Both the position numbers and the translations under genes were made by a program. From a virus: a stretch of 42,605 nucleotides of DNA. Location: the IMG/VR virus record IMGVR_UViG_3300009506_000072, positions 1-42,605 of that record. The stretch is one strand, 5' to 3'. Positions 4,365 through 21,583 of this stretch are shown one piece after another (position 1 is the stretch's first letter; each line of letters begins with the position of its first letter). The notes beneath the pieces were generated by a model. It saw only the letters and a program-made list of their open reading frames with translations. It was not told the DNA's origin and ran no database searches.

Positions 4365-6215
4365 ATGTCTCATATTAAACATGTCCCTGATCCATGGGAT
4401 GCTTTTCTGGTCCTAAATGACGTAGACGAAAGTACGTATACGGGTAAGGCGGGTCAGTTTGTCCGGGTGAATGCTACCCCAGATGGGTTGGAGTTTACGT
4501 CTGACGTGCTTAACAAGTCCGGTGGTACGATGACGGGTACTCTTGTTCTAGACGCTGACCCGACATCTGGACTCGAAGCAGCTACCAAGCAATACGTAGA
4601 TGGTGTTGCCCAAGGACTGGATATCAAAGAATCAGTAGTTGTAGCTACAACTGCTTCTATTACTCTGTCTGGTGAGCAGAGTATTGACGGCGTTAGCGTT
4701 GTAACTGGGGACCGTGTTCTGGTAAAGGATCAAGGTTCCGGTTCTCCTAATGCTGCGAACGGTATTTATGTTTGCGCTTCAGGTGCGTGGTCTCGTTCTA
4801 CGGATGCGGATGAAGATGACGAAGTTACTTCGGGCATGTTCTGCTTCGTTGAAGAAGGTACTGTTAATGGAAATACTGGTTGGGTACTGACAACCAATGA
4901 CCCGATTACCGTAGGCACCACCGCTATTGAATTTACCCAGTTCTCGGGAGCAGGCACATATACTAACGGTGCCGGTCTTACTCTGACGGGTAATGAGTTT
5001 GCGGCAGACTTTGAGGATACAGACGGTAATATCAATCCTGTTGGTACGCAGGATGCTGGTACGAGTGACAAGGTTGCTCGTGCAGATCACGTTCATGCTC
5101 ACGGAGACCAAGCGGGCGGTTCTTTGCACGCAGCGGTTATTGCGGCAGGGGCTTCTGGTTTTATGACCGGGTCAGACAAAACCAAGTTGGATGGTATTGC
5201 TACAGGCGCTGAGGTTAACCAGTATGCTTTCTCCAACATCGACGTAGACGCGGCAACAGCGGTGTTGGCTGCGGATGCTAAGACTGACACTTTGTACGTT
5301 ACTGGTGGAACTCTTATTACCCTGACCGGTACAGAGGGTTCGGATACTCTTGATTTTGCGGTTACAGGTGGTTCTGATGGGCAAGTTCTATTGACTTCAG
5401 GTACTACTCCAACATGGTCAACGCACGCATTTACGGCAATGTCGGATACTCCTGGGACGTATCAAGGTGACGGGTTCTTGATGGTCAATGCGACTGCGAA
5501 CGGAGTTGAGGAAAGGTTCTATTCTGCTACGCAAGGTGATATTCTGTACTATAATGGTACTATCTGGACTACGCTGGCAGCCGGTACAGATACTTATGTA
5601 CTAACCAGTAATGGTCCAAGTTCAAGTCCTTCATGGCAGACTAACCCAACAGGTGTTACAACTTTCTTGGGTCTTTCTGATGTTGATCCTACGGATTATA
5701 CGGGATCAGCCGGATACCTTGTGAGGGTTAACTCTACTCCGGATGGGTTGGAGTTTGCGAATTTGACCGGTGTTCCTTCTTCTGCAACGAATAACCAGAC
5801 TCTTTACTGGAATGGTTCTGCGTGGACGGCAAGTAGTATCATCTATAATGACCACAGTAATGCAGAGGTTGGTATTAATACCGCTTCGCCTAATGCTACG
5901 CTGCACGTTAACGGGTCCATTTCTGCTTTGACCACCACTCAAACGGGTGACTATAACTTGGATACGGGTACGAATGGAGATGTGTATACTGTTCTCCACA
6001 ATAACACTGGGGCGGATCAGACTATCACCCTCCCAACAGTAGCGTCATATCCTGGTAGGGTGTACAACATCAAGAAGATCAGCGGTCCAACTTACAAAAC
6101 TACGATTGCTACAACTGGTGCCGAAACCATTGACGGTGCTGCTACTTACGAGTTGAATATCCAATACGAGTCGGTAACCTTAGTGAGTGATGGTTCCAAC
6201 TGGTATATCGTATAA
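4365..6215 (+). CDS. Large tail fibre protein with VDxxTYxG repeats
   Basis: 616 residues with three copies of a fibre repeat of the form FLxLxDVDxxxYTGxAGxxVRVNxTPDGLEF. They start near residues 14, 353 (degenerate, FTAMSDTPGTYQGDGFLMV) and 440. Residues about 48-210 contain a widespread fibre domain (ATKQYVDGVAQGLD, VVVATTASITLSG, RVLVKDQ ... NGIYVCASGAW). A segment near 230 reads GTQDAGTSDKVARADHVHAHGD, also common in fibres. The C-terminal ~100 residues end RVYNIKKISG ... TYELNIQYESVTLV ... NWYIV, shared with the preceding protein. A strong TAGGAGG lies before ATG 4365. It is probably a main adhesin or side-fibre subunit. Confidence 0.8.
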   Translation: MSHIKHVPDPWDAFLVLNDVDESTYTGKAGQFVRVNATPDGLEFTSDVLNKSGGTMTGTLVLDADPTSGLEAATKQYVDGVAQGLDIKESVVVATTASITLSGEQSIDGVSVVTGDRVLVKDQGSGSPNAANGIYVCASGAWSRSTDADEDDEVTSGMFCFVEEGTVNGNTGWVLTTNDPITVGTTAIEFTQFSGAGTYTNGAGLTLTGNEFAADFEDTDGNINPVGTQDAGTSDKVARADHVHAHGDQAGGSLHAAVIAAGASGFMTGSDKTKLDGIATGAEVNQYAFSNIDVDAATAVLAADAKTDTLYVTGGTLITLTGTEGSDTLDFAVTGGSDGQVLLTSGTTPTWSTHAFTAMSDTPGTYQGDGFLMVNATANGVEERFYSATQGDILYYNGTIWTTLAAGTDTYVLTSNGPSSSPSWQTNPTGVTTFLGLSDVDPTDYTGSAGYLVRVNSTPDGLEFANLTGVPSSATNNQTLYWNGSAWTASSIIYNDHSNAEVGINTASPNATLHVNGSISALTTTQTGDYNLDTGTNGDVYTVLHNNTGADQTITLPTVASYPGRVYNIKKISGPTYKTTIATTGAETIDGAATYELNIQYESVTLVSDGSNWYIV

Positions 6216-6227
6216 TCGGAGTGGTGT

Positions 6228-8504
6228 GTGAGCCACATCTTAGAATTCTTAGACCTAGTAGATACTCCAACTACTTTTGTGGGTTCAGGTGGGTATCGTC
6301 TTAGAGTTAACTCTACGCCTGATGCGGTAGAATTTGTAGCTGATACTTTTCTGAATCTTTCGGATACTCCGAGCACCTTTTCAGGTTATCCTAGTGCTTA
6401 TCTAAAGGTTAATTCTGGGGCCAATGCAGTAGAATTCGTTACAGATGACACCTTTCATGAAGGTACTGTGGGAGAAATCAAAGGGTTATCGAATAAGGCT
6501 ACAATAGTTGATGATGATGTCTTTCTTATTGAAGATTCTGCGGCGTCATGGGCTAAAAAATATACTACAGCCGCTAATATTGCCACATACATAGGTTCGG
6601 GGCTAACTGATGCTGCGGCTATCCATGATGATACAGCCCAGGAAATCCAACCTATTACAACTAAATCTACCCCCGTAGATGCAGACGTTTTACTGATTGA
6701 AGATAGTGCTGCGTCTTGGGCCAAGAAAAGTGTGGCGTTTTCAAACCTTTCTTCTTATGTAGAGAGCGATTTAGGTGGTCCATTCCTCCCTTTGACGGCT
6801 GGATCTGGTGAGTCCTTAACCGGAGATCTATATGTGCATACAGGTCTTAATCCTGGGATTGTTTTACGAGAAGGGGGCACAGCTAATTACTATATACAGA
6901 TCTATGATGATGGAGCTGGGAGTAGTTATATTTACGCTGGTGCTGAAACTGCTGGAACCGCTGCTACCCTTAACATAAATCCTTACCCCACTTCTACTGG
7001 AGCGGCTTATCTTAATATTTTCCCCCAGGTTACCACTAGTAGTACTGTGGCTATGCGGGTTTACAATGGTGGTGGTGCTGTGGCGCACACTTTTGGTGGG
7101 AGTAGCGGGGATGCGGATCTGTGCCAACAAGGAGGTCAGGTAACTATTGGGGGTACAGGTGGAGCAGAGAAGCTGACCATTGTTGGTGGTAACATTCGCC
7201 TAGACTATACCTATGGTCTGTATTGTGAAAACTCAGTTGGGACAGCTTATAAGATTGCTTCTATGGCTAGTGGTAATGTAGTAACTTTTGGTACTGATAC
7301 GTATACTACAGATATTCGAGGAAGCGGAACTCGACCAACCTACAAGGGTAGTAGTCTTGCTCTCTACAGTGATATTGGTGGGGGGACAGATCCTGATGCT
7401 ATCCACGATAACGTAGCTAACGAAATTACGGCCATCACTGAAAAAACCAGCCTCGCGGATAATGATGAGTTTGTGATTGAAGATTCTGCGGCATCTTATG
7501 TTAAGAAGTCGGTTAAGCTTTCTAACTTGCAAACCTATGTGGGAGCGGACTATCTTCCGTTAACGGGTGGGACTCTTTCGGGAGACACTATCATCGATGG
7601 TGGTTCCTTTGGTGATGCAAACCTTCGGTTAGAAGGTGTCCTCCAGCTAGATGACTATGTTTGGGGAGCACAAGTCTTCAAGGGGGTTGGTGGAGTACTT
7701 AGCTTTACCGATAACACCGCTGGGGCTTTGAAGCTTCAGTTAGGTACCTTTTCCCAAACTCGACAGTATGATTTCATCATTCGCGGTTATCATCATTATG
7801 CTACGAAAAATATGGGTCCTTGGGAAATACACTGTTCTCTTAGAATCGCTACTACTCCAGATATAACAGACCTTGTTGCCGAAGTGACTGCTGGCAGCCC
7901 GCCTTTTGATGTGGTCAGTGCTGGTAATGATGGTTCGGGAAATGAGGTTGTAGTTTTTGGGACTACCTCTGATGTGATGGGGTACTTCGGTAAAATTCAT
8001 ATTCTAGATTTTGCGTCTGGTGGAAATCCCAACACGACTGAAGCCTCAACCTGGACGATGAGTCGTATAACCAGTACAAGCGGTTATACCTTCTATGAGT
8101 CTTCAATTCCTATTTATAGACCTCATGATGCTCAGAGAATGTGGGTGTACAACAACTCTGGTGGAGCTATTGCAGCGGGTGATCTTTGTTACATTTCAGG
8201 TTATTCAACCTACCCAACAATCGCACTTGCTGACGCGGATGCTGTTAGTACAAGTTCAGGAATGTTGGTGTGTGCTTATGCCGCCATGAGTAACGGTACT
8301 ACCGGTTGGGTTATTACTCGGGGAAAGATGAGCGGTTTTTCTAGTTTAACCGCAGGAAATATTTTGTATGTGAGTACTACGGCTGGAGATTTTACAGCAA
8401 CAGCGCCGACCGGAACTAATGATGTGGTTCGTGTTGCCGCATATGCTTTAAGCACTACAGAGATCTTCTTTGACCCATCTAAGACCTGGGTAGAGAGAAC
8501 TTAG
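6228..8504 (+). CDS. Large tail fibre/receptor-binding protein, GTG start
   Basis: 758 residues. GTG 6228 has CGGAG five bases upstream and places MSHILEFLDL at the front, parallel to the MSHI start of the previous protein. Two N-terminal repeats of the VDTPTTFVGSGG / LSDTPSTFSGYP type are followed by three copies of a unit containing (L/V)IEDSAAS(W/Y)(A/V)KK, near residues 98, 161 and 421. The middle carries Gly/Ser/Tyr-rich beta sequence. The last ~130 residues (MWVYNNSGGAIAAGDLCYIS ... GWVITRGKMSGF ... FFDPSKTWV) match a C-terminal domain type frequent in phage fibres. I read it as a multi-domain fibre with a C-terminal receptor-contact region. Confidence 0.8.
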   Translation: MSHILEFLDLVDTPTTFVGSGGYRLRVNSTPDAVEFVADTFLNLSDTPSTFSGYPSAYLKVNSGANAVEFVTDDTFHEGTVGEIKGLSNKATIVDDDVFLIEDSAASWAKKYTTAANIATYIGSGLTDAAAIHDDTAQEIQPITTKSTPVDADVLLIEDSAASWAKKSVAFSNLSSYVESDLGGPFLPLTAGSGESLTGDLYVHTGLNPGIVLREGGTANYYIQIYDDGAGSSYIYAGAETAGTAATLNINPYPTSTGAAYLNIFPQVTTSSTVAMRVYNGGGAVAHTFGGSSGDADLCQQGGQVTIGGTGGAEKLTIVGGNIRLDYTYGLYCENSVGTAYKIASMASGNVVTFGTDTYTTDIRGSGTRPTYKGSSLALYSDIGGGTDPDAIHDNVANEITAITEKTSLADNDEFVIEDSAASYVKKSVKLSNLQTYVGADYLPLTGGTLSGDTIIDGGSFGDANLRLEGVLQLDDYVWGAQVFKGVGGVLSFTDNTAGALKLQLGTFSQTRQYDFIIRGYHHYATKNMGPWEIHCSLRIATTPDITDLVAEVTAGSPPFDVVSAGNDGSGNEVVVFGTTSDVMGYFGKIHILDFASGGNPNTTEASTWTMSRITSTSGYTFYESSIPIYRPHDAQRMWVYNNSGGAIAAGDLCYISGYSTYPTIALADADAVSTSSGMLVCAYAAMSNGTTGWVITRGKMSGFSSLTAGNILYVSTTAGDFTATAPTGTNDVVRVAAYALSTTEIFFDPSKTWVERT

Positions 8505-9710: not shown

Positions 9711-9786
9711 TACCTTCTGTGCTTTATTAGATGTGAGAGCGGATTCACGCTAGTAAGGCCCAGGATAAGAAACTAGGAGGTATAAA

Positions 9787-10265: not shown

Positions 10266-10297
10266 ATGGGGACGGTTAGCCGTCCCCATTTGTTTAT
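10266..10297 (+). terminator. Intrinsic terminator after the Ig-like protein gene
   Basis: A perfect 10-bp stem (ATGGGGACGG 10266-10275 with CCGTCCCCAT 10280-10289) with a TTAG loop is followed by TTGTTTATTT. It lies 24 bases after the stop at 10242 and before the membrane-protein gene. Confidence 0.85.
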
Positions 10298-10783: not shown

Positions 10784-11007
10784 AGGCCACACTGTTACGG
10801 ATTCCGGTCAATCCTCATCCGTTTGATATTGAGCATAACATGAAAAAAGAATTTCAACGAGAAATTCTGTTTTCTTTGCTCGAAGAAGTAGAACAATTCT
10901 TGGTTGATTTAGAGTTAACTCCAGAAGAATTAGATACTAGCCGCCTGCGCAATTTGCGGGAAAAAGTTTGCGCACGAAAGAAAGAATTGCATGAGTATAA
11001 GTATTGA
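10738..11007 (+). CDS. Small helical protein overlapping the upstream gene
   Basis: 89 residues, with an N-terminus of MSISGIYKAVKSRGLKATLL followed by a charged helical region (FQREILFSLLEEVEQFLVDL). ATG 10738 lies inside the end of the membrane-protein gene and has AGGGAAACG upstream, so expression by coupling is likely. The stop codon (11005-11007) lies inside the -35 box of the sigma-gene promoter. Unknown function. Both overlapping frames look protein-like, but I am less sure of this one because the overlap is 46 bases. Confidence 0.6.
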   Translation: MSISGIYKAVKSRGLKATLLRIPVNPHPFDIEHNMKKEFQREILFSLLEEVEQFLVDLELTPEELDTSRLRNLREKVCARKKELHEYKY

Positions 11008-11032
11008 CAAACAAACAACCTACGAGTATACT
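11004..11032 (+). promoter_or_regulatory. Strong sigma70 promoter for the phage sigma gene
   Basis: TTGACA (11004-11009), a 17-base spacer, then TATACT (11027-11032). This is one base off consensus with the ideal spacing. Transcription would start near 11039, so the leader to ATG 11052 is very short. It lets host RNA polymerase transcribe the sigma gene independently of the surrounding structural operon. Confidence 0.75.
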
Positions 11033-11051: not shown

Positions 11052-11819
11052 ATGTCGTCAGGATGGTTTGCAGATTTAGGGTGGTGGGACCAACATGCCG
11101 CCTATGCTGCGTTTAATGCTTATAGATCTGACCCGACTGATCAACTATTTACTGAGGCTATTACCTTATCCCTTCCCATAATCCGCGTAGTTTATTCCAC
11201 CCAAAAATTCAAAGTATCATATGCAGGAGATGAGGACGACCTCATTTCTCACGCTGCCTTGACCATAACTAAAGCTCTTCCTAAAATGATAGAAAAACCA
11301 GTTGAAAAGCTAGACAACGATAAAAAATACATGCGATATTTGTTTACCTGTGTGATCAATGCCTTCTACAGAGAGTACGATATCTTACACGGCAAACAGA
11401 ATAAGCTTACAAAGAAGATCATTGAGAAGCATGACCCTGAGGATATGTATAAAGAAGCGGTTGGGGTAAAGGCCCTGGAAGCGGACCTTACACTCCAGAG
11501 AATCCCTCAGCAGCTACTGGATTACGCCATGGAGTGTGTCCGGTTTGAAGGTAGCTCACGAAAAATATGTAAGTATATTTTAGAGCAAATGATTGATGGT
11601 AGAGAAATTGCTAAGTCGGTTCTTCAGCTAATGGGTTGTAAGAACCGACATTTTTTTATTCATTACTGTGAGAGCATCCTTTTTCAGGCATTTCTACTCC
11701 TGAGAAGGAGAAAGCCCTATTCGGTAGAAGAAAGTTTCAATGAACTGGGTGGCTATGAAGATATGGAACCTTCTTTTGATTTAGATTTTTTCGTAGGGGA
11801 AGGATATGTGGAGGTATAA
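11052..11819 (+). CDS. T4 gp55-like late sigma factor
   Basis: 255 residues, against 185 for T4 gp55. I chose ATG 11052 because TTG 11049 lies too close to the GGAGG at 11043-11047. Residues about 38-112 read as sigma region 2: ITLSLPIIRVVYSTQKF, GDEDDLISHAALTITKALPK, then YMRYLFTCVINAFYREYD. T4 gp55 has the same order: a LIAEGLSKRFNF-like helix, a helix ending in ASIKGLHNF, then AYITQACFNAFVQR. A helical middle part (about 155-215) has no gp55 counterpart and might be a remnant of region 4. The C-terminus, EPSFDLDFFVGEGY, resembles the gp55 tail SLDFLYE that binds the sliding clamp. It has its own promoter and an internal terminator hairpin. It is expected to direct host RNA polymerase to late promoters. 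Confidence 0.7.
   Translation: MSSGWFADLGWWDQHAAYAAFNAYRSDPTDQLFTEAITLSLPIIRVVYSTQKFKVSYAGDEDDLISHAALTITKALPKMIEKPVEKLDNDKKYMRYLFTCVINAFYREYDILHGKQNKLTKKIIEKHDPEDMYKEAVGVKALEADLTLQRIPQQLLDYAMECVRFEGSSRKICKYILEQMIDGREIAKSVLQLMGCKNRHFFIHYCESILFQAFLLLRRRKPYSVEESFNELGGYEDMEPSFDLDFFVGEGYVEV
11615..11657 (+). terminator. Perfect intrinsic terminator inside the sigma gene
   Basis: GTCGGTTCTT (11615-11624) pairs perfectly with AAGAACCGAC (11640-11649) around a 15-base loop. A plus seven T residues (11651-11657) follow. It spans codons about 188-202 of the sigma-like gene, on the coding strand. In form it is a standard intrinsic terminator. Whether it works when ribosomes translate through it is unknown; it could attenuate the message or act only on untranslated RNA. 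Confidence 0.6.
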
Positions 11820-11820
11820 G

Positions 11821-12048
11821 ATGACTAGAGAAGAAATTATTGAAGCTATTCTGGAAAGTCAGTGGATTCAAAAAGCTACAGCGAGTATCAAGCGTCGGGG
11901 GACAGAGGGGGCATTTACCAAGTCAGCACGACGGGCTGGGTACTCGGATACTTTGGCATACGCTCGGGATGTAATGTCTGGAAAAGTAAAAGGTAACAAG
12001 AAGAGGGCCAATTTTGCGCTGAATGTTAACAAGCGCAGTAACAAGTGA
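11821..12048 (+). CDS. Small basic protein with a short conserved-looking viral motif
   Basis: 75 residues starting at ATG 11821, six bases after GGAGG (11810-11814), directly behind the sigma stop. An in-frame ATG at 11806 lies upstream of that site and is less likely. A helical N-terminus is followed by RRGTEGAFTKSARRAGYSD. The pattern KG/TEGxFTxxAxRAG is one I associate with short proteins of unknown role in large phages and viruses. The C-terminus is Lys/Arg/Asn-rich. Co-transcription with sigma suggests a nucleic-acid-binding or regulatory partner, but this is inference. Confidence 0.65.
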   Translation: MTREEIIEAILESQWIQKATASIKRRGTEGAFTKSARRAGYSDTLAYARDVMSGKVKGNKKRANFALNVNKRSNK

Positions 12049-12055
12049 TTGAGTT

Positions 12056-12190
12056 AGGTGCCTCAGATGTGGACACTGTATGGTTAGTGCTCTAAAATTT
12101 TATGGAACTACTCGATATATGATCGAGGAACACTAAACCAAGCCGTTGAGAACTGCTGTACAGTGCAAGCCCGTTTGAGGCGCCTTTTTA
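12056..12190 (+). ncRNA. Nested, probably structured RNA with terminator-like 3' end
   Basis: This fills the longest gene-free gap in the window (12049-12199). Four helices nest: AGGTGCCTCA 12056-12065 with TGAGGCGCCT 12176-12185 (10 bp, one G-U); CACTGTA 12074-12080 with TACAGTG 12159-12165; GGTTAGTG 12082-12089 with CACTAAACC 12131-12139 (one bulged A); and CTCGAT 12111-12116 with ATCGAG 12122-12127 (ATATG loop). Two near-identical segments, CAAGCCGTTGAG (12139-12150) and CAAGCCCGTTTGAG (12166-12179), lie in the 3' half. Five T residues (12185-12189) follow the closing stem. I do not recognise the family; it is not a tRNA. It could be a stable small RNA, a 3' untranslated structure or a regulatory leader for the gene at 12200. 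Confidence 0.55.
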
Positions 12191-12199
12191 AGGTGACAA

Positions 12200-12451
12200 A
12201 TGGAGAATACCAACATCCTCTCCCCTATCTTCGGGGAGCTTATAGCTTTAGCGGATCAAGTAGCACAGATAGATGATGAGGTTATTGAGGCGTACTGTAT
12301 GACTCTCGATAACGAAGAGTCTTTTATACCAGAACTCATCGGTATTATCGGCCCTATGGCATTTAAGCAGTTAGTATGTTATTATGGCAATCAGTCGATT
12401 CGTATACCTGCTCCAGAAGAAATTCTGGATAGGTTGAAGGAGAATCCATGA
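12200..12451 (+). CDS. Small protein resembling the N-terminal part of Mor-type regulators
   Basis: 83 residues, helical and acidic. Residues 40-75 (FIPELIGIIGPMAFKQLV then YYGNQSIRIPAPEE) recall the dimerisation segment of Mor/C-type phage activators, in which an ELxxLxGxxxxxxLVxxxGGxxIYIP pattern occurs. The C-terminal helix-turn-helix of Mor is absent, so a DNA-binding activator is not supported; it may be a small structural or regulatory protein. The start follows AAGGTGACA, 10 bases after the T tract of the structured RNA. The stop overlaps the next ATG. Confidence 0.65.
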   Translation: MENTNILSPIFGELIALADQVAQIDDEVIEAYCMTLDNEESFIPELIGIIGPMAFKQLVCYYGNQSIRIPAPEEILDRLKENP

Positions 12452-12984
12452 GAACTGGGGACGATATTGACATAGTTCATGAACTATCTGGTGAACTATT
12501 AGCCGCAGTCACTTCCGGGGGAAAGGTCAGTAACGAGCTGATTGATTACGCCGAAAATGTTATTCAAGCACATCAGGTGTATGTACAACTACTTTATGTT
12601 GGCATGGTAGTGGGTCAAATTAACTCTTTGGCTGACTATTTAAATGCGATGGACCAACTTGCGGCTGACATTGACATAGAAGACCTTGCAGAAGCGGATG
12701 TTCCCGTAAAGGTGCGGGGTATCACCGCGTTTAATCAAGCAGTTAAAACCAAGGTTGATATTATCTCCAGCATGATGGCTTCCAAAGATGCTATCGGTAT
12801 GCTTACTTCCTCTTTGAGAGAGACGTTCGGACAGAAGGATAGTCTTCTCGAAGAGGGTGGAGCGGATAGTGGTATGATGCAAAAGCTGAAAGATATGTCT
12901 CCAGAGGTTAGACAACGGGTATTGGGTGCTGCTGTTTCTAAATTACGCGAATCAATGGTAGGAGACGAAGAAGATGACGGATGA
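12448..12984 (+). CDS. All-helical acidic protein, weak candidate for terminase small subunit
   Basis: 178 residues, predicted almost entirely helical (LIDYAENVIQAHQVYVQLLY, FNQAVKTKVDIISSMMAS, MQKLKDMSPEVRQRVLGAA). AAGGAG precedes ATG 12448, which overlaps the previous stop. It lies about 2 kb before the large terminase gene. The size and the central long helices fit a T4 gp16-like small terminase, which is otherwise missing from this stretch. However, I see no clear DNA-binding motif, so this stays a weak suggestion. The stop overlaps the next gene by 11 bases. Confidence 0.7.
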   Translation: MRTGDDIDIVHELSGELLAAVTSGGKVSNELIDYAENVIQAHQVYVQLLYVGMVVGQINSLADYLNAMDQLAADIDIEDLAEADVPVKVRGITAFNQAVKTKVDIISSMMASKDAIGMLTSSLRETFGQKDSLLEEGGADSGMMQKLKDMSPEVRQRVLGAAVSKLRESMVGDEEDDG

Positions 12985-13327
12985 GGAGCTGATCGCCAAG
13001 AAAGCAGATCGGATACGCAAGGTTGGATTAGAGGGTACAAAACATACTATTGAAAAGAACCAAAAATATGGAGACGCAGTACGGAAGACAATTGGAATTC
13101 TCGGTACTCTGTACCCCGAAGGCATCCGTCCTGATCAATACCCCGACCTCTTGTTGTTAGTTCGAGTGTTAGACAAAGTAGTTCGTATTTCTTCATACAC
13201 TCCAGAACGTCGTGCTGAAGATGATGAGAGTCCTTGGGCAGATATTCGTGGGTACGGGATCTTGGGCGAAGAGAAAGATCTCGATGCATTGGAGGAAGGT
13301 ATTCCTCCAGGGAAGTATGAGTTGTAA
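12974..13327 (+). CDS. DUF1599/nucleotide-modification-domain-like protein
   Basis: 117 residues. Three blocks match the small phage domain family I know as DUF1599 (nucleotide modification associated domain): NQKYGDAV at 29-36, RVLDKVVRI at 64-72 and SPWADIRGYGIL at 86-97. The Asp/Lys/Arg positions follow the family order K..YGd, R.lDK..Ri, Di.GY. The family is linked to nucleotide metabolism or base modification in phages, by association rather than by an assay known to me. ATG 12974 has GGAGACGAAGA upstream and lies inside the previous gene. Its place in a packaging and structure operon is unusual. Confidence 0.65.
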   Translation: MTDEELIAKKADRIRKVGLEGTKHTIEKNQKYGDAVRKTIGILGTLYPEGIRPDQYPDLLLLVRVLDKVVRISSYTPERRAEDDESPWADIRGYGILGEEKDLDALEEGIPPGKYEL

Positions 13328-13617
13328 TGAATACACCAATAATAGTAGGGTTTTTGTTCGTATTACTACTCAATGTAATTTTTGTAGTTGTTTCTTTTTG
13401 GTTGATACGAAGATTTTACAGTGCCCGATTTGACCGTTTGGCGGTTATCGTTCAAGAGGCTATGGCTTTACGAGATGCTGAATTCCGTAAGCTTGAGGCT
13501 CAGTTTGCTTCAATGATTATCAAGGATACCCGGCTACTAGATGGGGCCTTAGAAGATTACTCAGACGTACTTGAGGCAGAGGGAGAAGACGATGAACGCG
13601 AAGGCACAGATAGCTAA
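13327..13617 (+). CDS. Small membrane protein with cytoplasmic coiled coil
   Basis: 96 residues. One N-terminal hydrophobic segment (residues about 5-27, VGFLFVLLLNVIFVVVSFWL) is followed by RRFYSARFDR and a helical, acidic tail ending EGEDDEREGTDS. The positive residues after the helix suggest that the bulk faces the cytoplasm. Start 13327 overlaps the previous stop (TAATG), with only a weak ribosome site. It overlaps the next gene by 26 bases. A membrane or lysis-related role is possible; the function is unknown. Confidence 0.65.
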   Translation: MNTPIIVGFLFVLLLNVIFVVVSFWLIRRFYSARFDRLAVIVQEAMALRDAEFRKLEAQFASMIIKDTRLLDGALEDYSDVLEAEGEDDEREGTDS

Positions 13618-14608
13618 AGAGCTGGATGATCTCGTTTTACATATTGCAGAAGCCTACAACGATCTAATCGCAGATGAGATTTCTGATAAAGAATTTGAAG
13701 AGGCGGTAAAAAAAGTAACTTCAATAAGGGATAAGACGGCTGATAACCTTCTACAACTAGTGAATGATGTTGTTGAGGCAACAATCAAGGTTGTAGTAGA
13801 GAACGAAAAGCCTACAACAAAAGAAGAAAGGCTGGCCAAGCTTCTCCCAGAACCGCTTGTTCCGCAAGCTCCCGAAGTTGTTGAACCTCCTCCTACACCA
13901 GTCAAACCTACTTTACTTGGTCCTCCTAGCCCCCTCCCACGGGAAGTAGGACAAGTTTCTTCTTCCTCTTCTATCCCACCACAATTGATGGAGGATGAGG
14001 ATATCGATATTGGAACCCACAATTTAGGGCTAACTATCGAGCAGGAGAAACGGTTAAAGGCTGGTAAGCCTATTAATCCTCTGCGTCCTACAATCTCAGT
14101 AGACCATCAAGGAGTACGAGAGACACACCCTAATCGTGCTCCTACTCCTACACTACCTATTCCTGAACCGGCACCCAAGATTGAGCCTAAGAGTATGCCT
14201 GTAGAGAAAGCTGAGATAAAACCTCTTACACCTACCGAAAAGAATGCGCTGTATCTGATTCAAGATATTATGGTGCCTTATCGTGAGGATAAGGATAGAA
14301 CGCTCGCTACAGTGGCTTGTAGCGTTCTTTCTGTGATCTCCAAGGCACTCTCCAAGGAGGGGGCTATCGAGCGTTACAGCGGCGTAGAGATGCTCTGGAA
14401 GGCACTTACAGCCGCTATCCAGAAACTTCGTAAACTTGAAAAGGATGTAAAGTTTGAGGGGGATGTTTTACGTTTGAGAGAAGTTGTGTCAAGTGCGGTT
14501 GAAGATATTGTAGCGACAGTAGCTTCTTATCCTCTACCGGATGAGGCTCCTACGGAGAAACCAGTAGTCCCTTTATCAGAAGTGGAGGAGGAGAAAGATG
14601 GAACCTAA
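13592..14608 (+). CDS. Helical protein with Pro-rich linker, unknown function
   Basis: 338 residues from ATG 13592 (GGGAG six bases upstream; an in-frame TTG at 13571 lacks a site). The N-terminal ~75 residues are helical (QIAKELDDLVLHIAEAYNDL). A Pro-rich stretch (about 80-145, VVEPPPTPVKPTLLGPPSP) and a second Pro-rich linker near 170-205 follow. A helical domain at about 210-325 comes next (NALYLIQDIMVPYREDKDRT), then an acidic tail. Two helical domains joined by flexible linkers suggest a scaffold or adaptor that bridges partners. A hairpin with T-rich tail lies inside at 14305-14334. Confidence 0.7.
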   Translation: MNAKAQIAKELDDLVLHIAEAYNDLIADEISDKEFEEAVKKVTSIRDKTADNLLQLVNDVVEATIKVVVENEKPTTKEERLAKLLPEPLVPQAPEVVEPPPTPVKPTLLGPPSPLPREVGQVSSSSSIPPQLMEDEDIDIGTHNLGLTIEQEKRLKAGKPINPLRPTISVDHQGVRETHPNRAPTPTLPIPEPAPKIEPKSMPVEKAEIKPLTPTEKNALYLIQDIMVPYREDKDRTLATVACSVLSVISKALSKEGAIERYSGVEMLWKALTAAIQKLRKLEKDVKFEGDVLRLREVVSSAVEDIVATVASYPLPDEAPTEKPVVPLSEVEEEKDGT

Positions 14609-14924
14609 AGAAACTATTTTCCTGGTCCTGGTTAGGGTCACTTTACTGGGGGGAAAAGAAGCTGTAGCTGTTGATGCTTTTAAGGTTGAAGATGCAACTA
14701 CTGCGTTGAACTATGCTCGTAATATGTTTATTCAGAGTAGGGGAGAGGCGGTTGTTTATGGAACAACCTCTTTCTTGGTGGATATGGTTACCAGTGTAGA
14801 GGCAGAAGTATTAGCTGTACTAGACGAGACTCATCCTTTCAACGCTCCTTGGTTGGAGTCTATTGAGATGTTTGAAGATTTTTGGGAGAAGGAAGAACAA
14901 AAGGTGAGGGCTGACAATAGATGA
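14598..14924 (+). CDS. Small alpha/beta protein before the terminase gene
   Basis: 108 residues with an alternating strand/helix pattern: IFLVLVRVTLLGGKEAVAVD, then ATTALNYARNMF, then AVVYGTTSFLVDMV. The C-terminus is acidic and helical. GAGGAG precedes ATG 14598, inside the preceding gene, and the stop overlaps the terminase ATG (ATGA), so it is translationally coupled to the terminase. It lacks a helix-turn-helix or the long helices of known small terminase subunits. Unknown function. Confidence 0.7.
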   Translation: MEPKETIFLVLVRVTLLGGKEAVAVDAFKVEDATTALNYARNMFIQSRGEAVVYGTTSFLVDMVTSVEAEVLAVLDETHPFNAPWLESIEMFEDFWEKEEQKVRADNR

Positions 14925-16999
14925 GTAGAAAACGTACTGATATCTCAAGACTTTTACCTACTGTAGAAGCTGAAGAACTCACTTCAGCCGATCATGAGTT
15001 GGTAAAAGAACTGTTGGAATACCTGGAAAGCACGGGGGATTCCTCAGTGTTGGATGATATCTTTGCGCTCGACTACGATATGACGCCTATCCCTCCGGGT
15101 GAGTTCCTTAATTCTAGACACTACATGGGACCATTCATCGACGCTCTTTACCCCAAATGGAAAGAAGAGCTGTTGTATGTTTTAGACCCAAAGAACCAGA
15201 TCAACGAGTGGATCATTTACGGGTCTATTGGAACAGGTAAGACTTCAGCCGCTTGTGTGGCTCAGTTGTATAAGCTCTACTGGCTTACCTGTATGAAATC
15301 CCCTCAGCGTATTTTCGGATTGGCGGAACACTTCCCGGTGTATTTCGCTTTCTTCTCTGTAACAAAGGGTAAGGCAGAGGATGCCATTAACGCTAAGTTC
15401 CAGGGGCTGATGAACATGAGTCCCTACTTCCGTGAGCATCTTCCCAAGAACCCTAGAAAGGTGTTTTTGCAAGGTGCAGCTAATCTCTTCGGCGCGGGGT
15501 ACAAAGAACATCCTAAAAAAGACGATCTTTTTGAGCTTGTGCTGCCTCACAATCTACACCTACTATTCGGTTCGCAAACACAGCACGCGCTTTCTCTTGA
15601 CGTGTTTAGCGCAACGCTAGACGAGATGAACTTTCGTGGTAAGAAGTCTGTCCGAGAGGAAGAAGACGAAAATAGTGCTCAAAAACTTTACCATCAGGTA
15701 CGGACTCGTATTGAATCTCGTTTCAAGAACGCAGGCTATAACCCTGGATTGGTTATTAATATCTCGTCAGCTAGGTCTTCGGATTCTTTCGTGGAGCAGC
15801 GTATTCAAGAGGTTCGTCAAAATCATGTTTCTAACGTTCATATTTCTGATTTCGCTTTGTGGGATGTGAAGCCTGGACGATATGGCAATAAGTTCTTCAA
15901 GGTGTTTGTTAGCTCCGGTTTCCGTTCTTCTAGGATTCTAGATGAGGGAGAAATAGTCCCCGATATGCGTGAGGGGGAACAAATCATCGATGTACCTGAC
16001 TCCTTTAAGAGTACGTTTGAAACGGGGTTGGATGCTGCAATTAGGGATATTGCTGGAGTTCCTACGGCGGCTATCAATAAGTTGTTCAAACGAAGAGAGA
16101 TTATTTTAGAAGCTAATGGGAAATATGCTAATCCTATCCAACCTGAAACTCTTGAAATAGGATTGCAAAGTGGGCTAGAAGTTTCTGACTTTTTTGACGT
16201 AGATGAAGTAAGCCGTTATGATAATATTCAACGACATCTTCTACATTATCCTAGGGCCGGAAGGTTTGTACACGTTGACTTAGCTCGAAATGGTGACTGT
16301 GCAGCTATAACGAGTTTAGCTATACCTTTTTATTTCTATAGGCACCTTCCTCATGTAGATAATAATCGAGAAACAGTAACCTTAAAACTTCCTTTTGTTT
16401 TTGTAGACTTTCATTGTAGAATTAAAGCTCCTAAACTTGATGAAATTGCCTTTGAAAAAGTACGTCAATTTATCGTATGGCTTAGAGATAGTATGGGCTA
16501 TAATATAGTTCGGGTGTCTTATGACTCCTGGCAGTCAATTCATTCCATGCAACTTTTAAAGGAAAATGGTTTCGAAGTAGAGACTATCTCCGTGGATAAA
16601 ACAGATGAACCATACATGGAATTGCACAATGCTTTTGTAGAGAGACGACTTATGAAACCTCCTTTTACTGCCATAGATGTTGAGCTGCGGGATTTGGAGC
16701 ACGATATTACTGCGGCTAAAGGTTCAGTAGACCACCCTAGAAATAGCTCTAAGGACGTGGCTGACTCTTTGGCCGGTGCGTATGCTAATGCGTTAGAGTG
16801 GATTCACAAACACGGTTTTGGAGCTATAGGAGCAACCCTGGTTCAAGAGGCCGTCTTGCCATACCTCTTCCAGAAATCTCCGAAAGAAATCCGGGCCGCG
16901 AAACTATCGAAAGAACTGGGGTATGATGAGCCGGTTACCCTGGATAGCGGATATGAAGGACGATTTCAAAGGCCATCACGTCTTGCTTCCAGAGGTTAG
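14921..16999 (+). CDS. Terminase large subunit (packaging ATPase-nuclease)
   Basis: 692 residues. The N-terminal ATPase has a Walker A motif at 101-109 (GSIGTGKTS) and a Walker B motif ATLDE at 231-235 with the catalytic Glu. The C-terminal RNase H-like nuclease has a first acidic residue in FVHVDLARNGD (Asp453), a likely second near VSYDSW (Asp535), and the last in KDVADSLAGAYANA (Asp612 and Asp615). The enzyme docks on the portal, hydrolyses ATP to pump DNA into the prohead and cuts the concatemer. Base composition drops in the nuclease half (17 of 60 G or C at 16381-16440, against 30 of 60 at 15301-15360), which may reflect mosaic origin. The function is firm from the motifs. Confidence 0.93.
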   Translation: MSRKRTDISRLLPTVEAEELTSADHELVKELLEYLESTGDSSVLDDIFALDYDMTPIPPGEFLNSRHYMGPFIDALYPKWKEELLYVLDPKNQINEWIIYGSIGTGKTSAACVAQLYKLYWLTCMKSPQRIFGLAEHFPVYFAFFSVTKGKAEDAINAKFQGLMNMSPYFREHLPKNPRKVFLQGAANLFGAGYKEHPKKDDLFELVLPHNLHLLFGSQTQHALSLDVFSATLDEMNFRGKKSVREEEDENSAQKLYHQVRTRIESRFKNAGYNPGLVINISSARSSDSFVEQRIQEVRQNHVSNVHISDFALWDVKPGRYGNKFFKVFVSSGFRSSRILDEGEIVPDMREGEQIIDVPDSFKSTFETGLDAAIRDIAGVPTAAINKLFKRREIILEANGKYANPIQPETLEIGLQSGLEVSDFFDVDEVSRYDNIQRHLLHYPRAGRFVHVDLARNGDCAAITSLAIPFYFYRHLPHVDNNRETVTLKLPFVFVDFHCRIKAPKLDEIAFEKVRQFIVWLRDSMGYNIVRVSYDSWQSIHSMQLLKENGFEVETISVDKTDEPYMELHNAFVERRLMKPPFTAIDVELRDLEHDITAAKGSVDHPRNSSKDVADSLAGAYANALEWIHKHGFGAIGATLVQEAVLPYLFQKSPKEIRAAKLSKELGYDEPVTLDSGYEGRFQRPSRLASRG

Positions 17000-17047
17000 G
17001 GCTAATCCTGCTTTATTACAGTGACTTGACGAGTCGGAGGACTTATT

Positions 17048-21550: not shown

Positions 21551-21583
21551 CCCGTAGTATTCATTAATTGGTAGGAGTCGGAT

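Follow-up and report, generated by a model that had tools for sequence, protein, structure and literature searches.

A covarying RNA flanked by a sigma-like gene and the packaging block in one clade of uncultured phages

The window, that is the whole stretch of DNA analysed here, is an IMG/VR virus record of 42,605 bases in which the largest gap between the main genes measures 151 nt. This gap raises two questions: does it hold an RNA, and what might such an RNA do between a sigma-like gene and the genes that lead to the large terminase (TerL)? An earlier note, made from the letters alone, had described 12056-12190 as a nested RNA structure in the largest gene-free gap, and both the coordinates and the description of the gap proved right. 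Here, we report that this segment is a structured RNA encoded on the + strand and conserved in structure and position among eight distinct phage sequences, and we weigh the roles that it may have.

Fold, covariation and strand of the RNA

The 135-nt element has a folding energy of -50.5 kcal/mol, as against a mean of -31.2 (sd 3.5) for 200 dinucleotide shuffles, 0/200 of which were as good, and the fold is thus beyond chance (z about -5.5), as had been supposed. The RNA folds better than shuffled sequence in the window and in each of its seven RNA-bearing relatives, with z from -3.1 to -6.5. The relatives were gathered by way of the window's large terminase, on contigs of up to 176 kb; the eight distinct sequences are the window and seven other IMG/VR contigs, with L007 a duplicate of L006, and the pairwise identity of their RNAs is 39-76%. 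A covariance model gives 85-122 bits in the eight, one copy per contig, but these scores are not independent, since the same eight sequences built the model, and the evidence lies in the covariation.

Two-sided compensatory changes, the check that the earlier note had proposed, were found in the model alignment at 24 of 33 pairs (12.7 when shuffled), in 50 cells (17.9 when shuffled), and 87.1% of cells pair (73.0% when shuffled), while sliding the 3' partners lowers pairing to 33-50%. The model alignment is fitted to the structure and somewhat favours it; a plain MAFFT alignment already holds compensatory changes in 22 of 28 pairs. MAFFT misplaced helix P4 in some rows, and P4 and P3 were realigned by hand in an alignment made by seeking pairing, which is also biased towards structure. 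Shuffled P4 strands were as good as the real ones in 0 of 2000 trials. Neither a gap without compensatory changes nor folding at the level of shuffled sequence, the two outcomes named beforehand as telling against a structured RNA, was found. A hidden coding extension of p83, the gene 3' of the RNA, was considered and rejected: in the window, L001 and L006 a stop interrupts its frame right upstream of p83, and the helices covary across indels.

Overall, the element is a long hairpin in the order P1-P2-P3-P4 with a large conserved internal loop (Table 1), and the pair probabilities of P1, P2 and the P4 hairpin are high in the window. P1 comprises 14 bp there, with 2 more beyond a bulge, and two-sided changes are seen at 12 of its 15 model pairs; the core of P2 is CACTGTA/TACAGTG. 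P3 (GTGCTC/GAGAAC) has one internal mismatch, and its inner 3 bp, of CUC/GAG type, are kept in 8/8 sequences, with double changes in 3/3 columns of the hand alignment. Of the 6 bp of P4 in the window, 5 are kept in 8/8 sequences with double changes in 5/5 columns, and the loop that P4 closes varies in both length and sequence among the relatives. The internal loop sets an AU-rich strand opposite [G/C]AAC..., and its invariant AAC was read from the invariant columns of alignments A1 and A4.

Of the four helices first proposed, the outer, the second and the 6-bp apical one have held, although the outer is longer than the 10 bp given to it. The 8-bp third helix, GGTTAGTG/CACTAAACC, was rejected, as the relatives keep just 1 to 5 of its 8 pairs; in the window it can form at 0.8 kcal/mol above the minimum and makes up about 20% of the ensemble there. 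As had been pointed out, there are two similar CAAGCC(C)GTT(T)GAG segments; they correspond to the 3' strands of P3 and P1, and outside the window and L001 they do not clearly resemble each other.

The strand can be read from P1, which contains G-U pairs in 19 cells of the model alignment; on the opposite strand these would be A-C, and the folded strand is therefore the + strand. The 3' T-run, the U tract already noticed after the outer stem, likewise places the RNA on the + strand, and 4-6 T follow P1 directly or almost directly in 8/8 RNA-bearing sequences.

Table 1. Positions of the RNA, its parts and the flanking elements in the window
Feature	Position	Strand	Basis or remark
Sigma70-type promoter before the sigma-like gene	11004..11032	+	TTGACA-17-TATACT
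Sigma-like gene, divergent	11052..11819	+	AlphaFold model, assignment of modest confidence; RNA at 3' end of the transcript
Gene of 75-aa protein	11821..12048	+	between sigma-like gene and RNA, in some relatives only
Whole structured RNA	12056..12190	+	fold z -5.53; covariance-model match in 8 distinct sequences
P1, 5' strand (outer helix)	12056..12072	+	15 model pairs, 98% of cells paired
P2, 5' strand	12074..12083	+	two-sided changes at 9/10 pairs; 76% of cells paired
P3, 5' strand (GTGCTC)	12087..12092	+	conserved; supersedes the 8-bp helix first proposed
P4, 5' strand (apical hairpin)	12111..12116	+	hand-aligned, CTCGAT
P4, 3' strand (apical hairpin)	12122..12127	+	hand-aligned, ATCGAG
Invariant AAC	12129..12131	+	just 3' of P4, inside the large internal loop
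P3, 3' strand (GAGAAC)	12148..12153	+	conserved; same basis as P3 5' strand
P2, 3' strand	12156..12165	+	same basis as P2 5' strand
P1, 3' strand (outer helix)	12170..12185	+	same model pairs as 5' strand
T-run	12185..12189	+	after P1; intrinsic-terminator-like end, by sequence
p83 gene	12200..12451	+	83 aa, Mor/C dimerisation-domain-like; first gene 3' of RNA

Distribution and neighbouring genes

The RNA family appears to be new, and its known range is narrow, namely eight distinct sequences from one clade of uncultured phages. The 4227 families of Rfam 15 gave no match at the curated gathering threshold over the whole window and no credible match even at E<=10 within 11950-12300. ARAGORN called 0 tRNA or tmRNA genes; to the earlier note, too, the element had not looked like a tRNA or a familiar riboswitch. 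No description of this RNA was found in the open-access literature. No phage record was matched by blastn of the region, two scans of genome contigs found no relative, and a search of distant TerL relatives with the RNA model gave nothing convincing. Three contigs (L014, L083 and L085) were discarded as members, being chance matches to the DNA pattern, and among 45 further DNA-pattern matches the RNA was present solely in already known contigs.

The gene order is kept as far as the contigs reach: sigma-like gene, in some cases a small gene, gap, p83, p178 and so on to TerL. In every close relative except L010 the gap holds a long hairpin that ends directly before p83; the RNA model found the element absent from this outgroup. 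The small gene (75 aa, WIQKA...RRGTEGAFTKSARRAGY) occurs in the window, L004 and L006, is absent from the other relatives, and its product has no match in Pfam or PHROG. The sigma-like protein had no credible Pfam match and matched no phage record by tblastn, and its AlphaFold model bears a weak resemblance to sigma32, WhiG and T4 gp55, none at E<=0.001; we regard the assignment as sigma-like with modest confidence.

Downstream, the orthologs of p83 match PHROG 836, 'late transcriptional activator', in 8/8 cases over about 35 residues (best E 2e-4), whereas the match to Pfam Mor reaches an E of 0.11 only, PDB gave no match, and the AlphaFold model of p83 is too low in quality for use. As p83 matches the Mor/C late-activator profile only in part and lacks the length needed to include the DNA-binding portion, it may be the dimerisation domain alone. 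The block from p83 to TerL spans 12200-16999, with TerL 2.7 kb downstream of the RNA; TerL weakly matches large-terminase PHROGs and also the terminases of Vibrio, Thermus and other phages, matches that speak against a packaging ATPase of phi29 type. Two proteins have T4 counterparts: the capsid protein matches Gp23, and the protease matches the prohead protease. In L010, TerL (4420-7776) contains about 430 extra in-frame aa directly behind its Walker A motif GTGK; this insertion begins CCRSSTLATTSKGLL, ends GGFISHN before T and has the look of an intein, and no Rfam intron was found in it.

Transcription context and possible roles

A TTGACA-17/18-TATA(C/G)T-type promoter lies about 48 bp upstream of the sigma-like gene in 7/8 RNA-bearing phages (not in L006), with 10-11 of the 12 consensus bases, and a weaker form is found in the outgroup L010. 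The RNA starts a few to about 20 nt past the stop codon of the preceding gene, which leaves little room for a promoter of its own, and it always ends 0-14 nt upstream of the p83 start codon. No shared promoter was found in the RNA or in the 60 nt upstream of it, matches there being at chance level, and none was recognised between the sigma-like gene and p83. One candidate inside the RNA (12070, TGGACA-17-TAAAAT) was rejected: it is not kept in the relatives, and promoter-like matches stay at chance level (18 found, 21 expected). In L010, TTGACA-17-TACCCT stands directly upstream of p83; a promoter where the RNA is missing fits the RNA having taken over control of the block, an argument drawn from this single contig.

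The phages also hold a second type of candidate promoter box, CTTTATT(A/G). Across nine related sequences, 14/14 exact CTTTATTA copies counted on the + strand are located in gaps; the gaps, called by a crude ORF rule, make up 11 kb of about 190 kb, and no exact p-value is attached to this count because the motif was picked after the gaps had been seen and the nine sequences are related. The box is found again at orthologous sites upstream of window genes 9787 and 17048, and a variant, ATTCATTA, precedes gene 21584 (window boxes at 9722-9729, 17011-17018 and 21559-21566; orthologous gaps in L020-L029). Such boxes are often followed by nnTG and lie about 10-70 bp upstream of gene starts, and we consider CTTTATT(A/G) a candidate promoter box for the phage's own sigma-like factor. 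There is no convincing copy in the RNA or in the 200 nt upstream, and no phage-type box at the RNA scores in the range of the other sites, bar a match to the T-run of L024 at the very bottom of it. In L021 and L022 a box lies shortly upstream of TerL, which may there have a second source of transcript. A strong ordinary terminator hairpin (10 bp, 7 of them G-C) is present between window genes 9787 and 10328, at 10266-10289, and a similar one, GGGAGCAGCTTGCTGCTCCC, at about 4461-4480 in L021.

In every RNA-bearing sequence the 3' end has the form of an intrinsic terminator, a stable helix followed at once by a U-run, and P1 with its U-run is probably an intrinsic terminator that ends the sigma-like transcript. 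A simple terminator scan, which uses loops of 3-8, cannot score the P1 hairpin. Against this assignment, a 15-bp P1 around some 100 nt is exceptionally large for a terminator hairpin, and the conserved inner core would be superfluous in a plain terminator; since the conserved internal loop exceeds what termination needs, a bound factor or a second role as free RNA would be expected.

The reading that we prefer, and for which we see about an even chance, combines termination, read-through and a factor bound to the loop, as inferred from sequence and gene arrangement. The RNA would form the 3'-terminal part of the + strand transcript of the sigma-like gene, and most transcripts from the promoter at 11004 would stop at about 12189 on P1 and the following U-run, leaving a paired-end, nuclease-resistant RNA. 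The block from p83 to TerL would then be made only by polymerases that read through; as no promoter is recognised for this block, it may depend on read-through, with the RNA as a gate before the packaging genes. Unrecognised promoters within p83 or later genes would make read-through needless. A protein of the phage or of its host probably binds the internal loop and the AAC 3' of P4, and could set termination, stability or both. The earlier suggestion of a small RNA ending the sigma unit fits this transcription context (promoter, start of the RNA, P1 and T-run in 8/8), with its stability and release as proposals. We think it rather unlikely that the arrangement amounts to a timing device, in which the fold of the sigma-like transcript's RNA is read by a phage protein, which may be for example the sigma-like protein itself or the Mor-like p83, and decides between stopping and the packaging genes.

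A serious rival to read-through gating, possible although doubtful, is a stable trans-acting small RNA, cut or terminated from the sigma-like transcript, whose targets could be host RNA polymerase, a host mRNA or a phage protein. The closed-end hairpin with its U-tail, the single copy per contig, the conserved internal loop with the invariant AAC and a structure far exceeding terminator needs all agree with this. Its place before p83 would then reflect genome economy, but that place is kept in 8/8 sequences even though the upstream neighbour changes; moreover, the P4 loop offers no conserved single-stranded seed and the RNA has no separate promoter.

The RNA may instead act on the gene that follows it, and as a leader of the protein at 12200, another of the roles first suggested, it is compatible with the distance of its end from the start codon. 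An improbable form of this is translational, with P1 restraining or organising ribosome binding and p83 or another phage protein perhaps serving as an autoregulator that binds the internal loop. In all relatives the start codon does lie within about 20 nt of the end of P1, and a clear Shine-Dalgarno is missing in most of them besides the window and L001; several other window genes, however, likewise do without a Shine-Dalgarno, so that its lack is nothing special, and translational control needs no T-run, yet the T-run after P1 is kept in all.

Far less probable is an attenuator that senses a ligand or factor through two exclusive folds, in which either of the two CAAGCC(C)GTT(T)GAG segments could pair with the P1 5' strand. 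In its favour, these segments, which form the 3' strands of P3 and P1, are alike in the window and in L001, and pairing of P3-5' with P1-3' beats shuffled sequence in L001, L002 and L011, but this exchange is inconsistent across the eight, in most of them P1-5' pairs with P3-3' no better than shuffled sequence does (fractions 0.05 to 0.84), and the very stable P1 forms without needing a ligand. No exclusive alternative pairing is conserved among the eight sequences, and a leader would therefore more likely work by termination and read-through than as a ligand switch. A packaging RNA of the phi29 pRNA kind ahead of the terminase block, also named in the earlier note, is hardly credible, for only the TerL block 2.7 kb downstream speaks for it, while TerL is an ordinary large-terminase relative, the Rfam pRNA families do not match and L010 has a related TerL without the RNA.

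The element adds a well-supported RNA family outside Rfam. The phages that carry it are uncultured and have a capsid protein and a prohead protease of T4 type, and it stands at the junction of a sigma-like gene and a packaging block, where one would expect an early-to-late switch. With the covariance model, the eight sequences and the flanking promoters, a specific and cheap test of termination and read-through is possible; were a trans-acting role true, this would be one more structured phage RNA possibly acting on transcription.

Comparison with known systems

Several known RNAs share features with the element. Like the packaging RNA of phi29 it is a phage RNA with paired ends near packaging genes, and it differs in the points given above: no match to Rfam pRNA families, an ordinary TerL and an outgroup that has the TerL but lacks the RNA. 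With 6S RNA it shares a long hairpin, a closing stem and a large internal loop, here beside a sigma-like gene; unlike 6S RNA, the loop is asymmetric and contains an additional hairpin, no bubble resembling a promoter was seen, and the Rfam 6S model does not match the element. The put RNA of HK022, as outlined in PMC9378689, is a structured nascent phage RNA in an operon where termination matters, as here, but put suppresses termination whereas the present RNA has a terminator-like end, the two being compared by description alone.

GraL, the leader of E. coli greA outlined in PMC6829880, is an RNA between promoter and gene that has its own terminator and whose read-through feeds the gene. Leaders of this type resemble the element, by description alone, in being ended by their own terminator with read-through to the next gene, and differ in that a whole sigma-like gene here precedes the RNA. 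An intrinsic (rho-independent) terminator has in common with it the G+C-rich helix running into a U-run at the end of a unit, found in 8/8 sequences, although here the place of the short loop is taken by about 100 nt of conserved RNA with structure of its own. In its working, the element would be most like an intrinsic terminator that carries a structured RNA.
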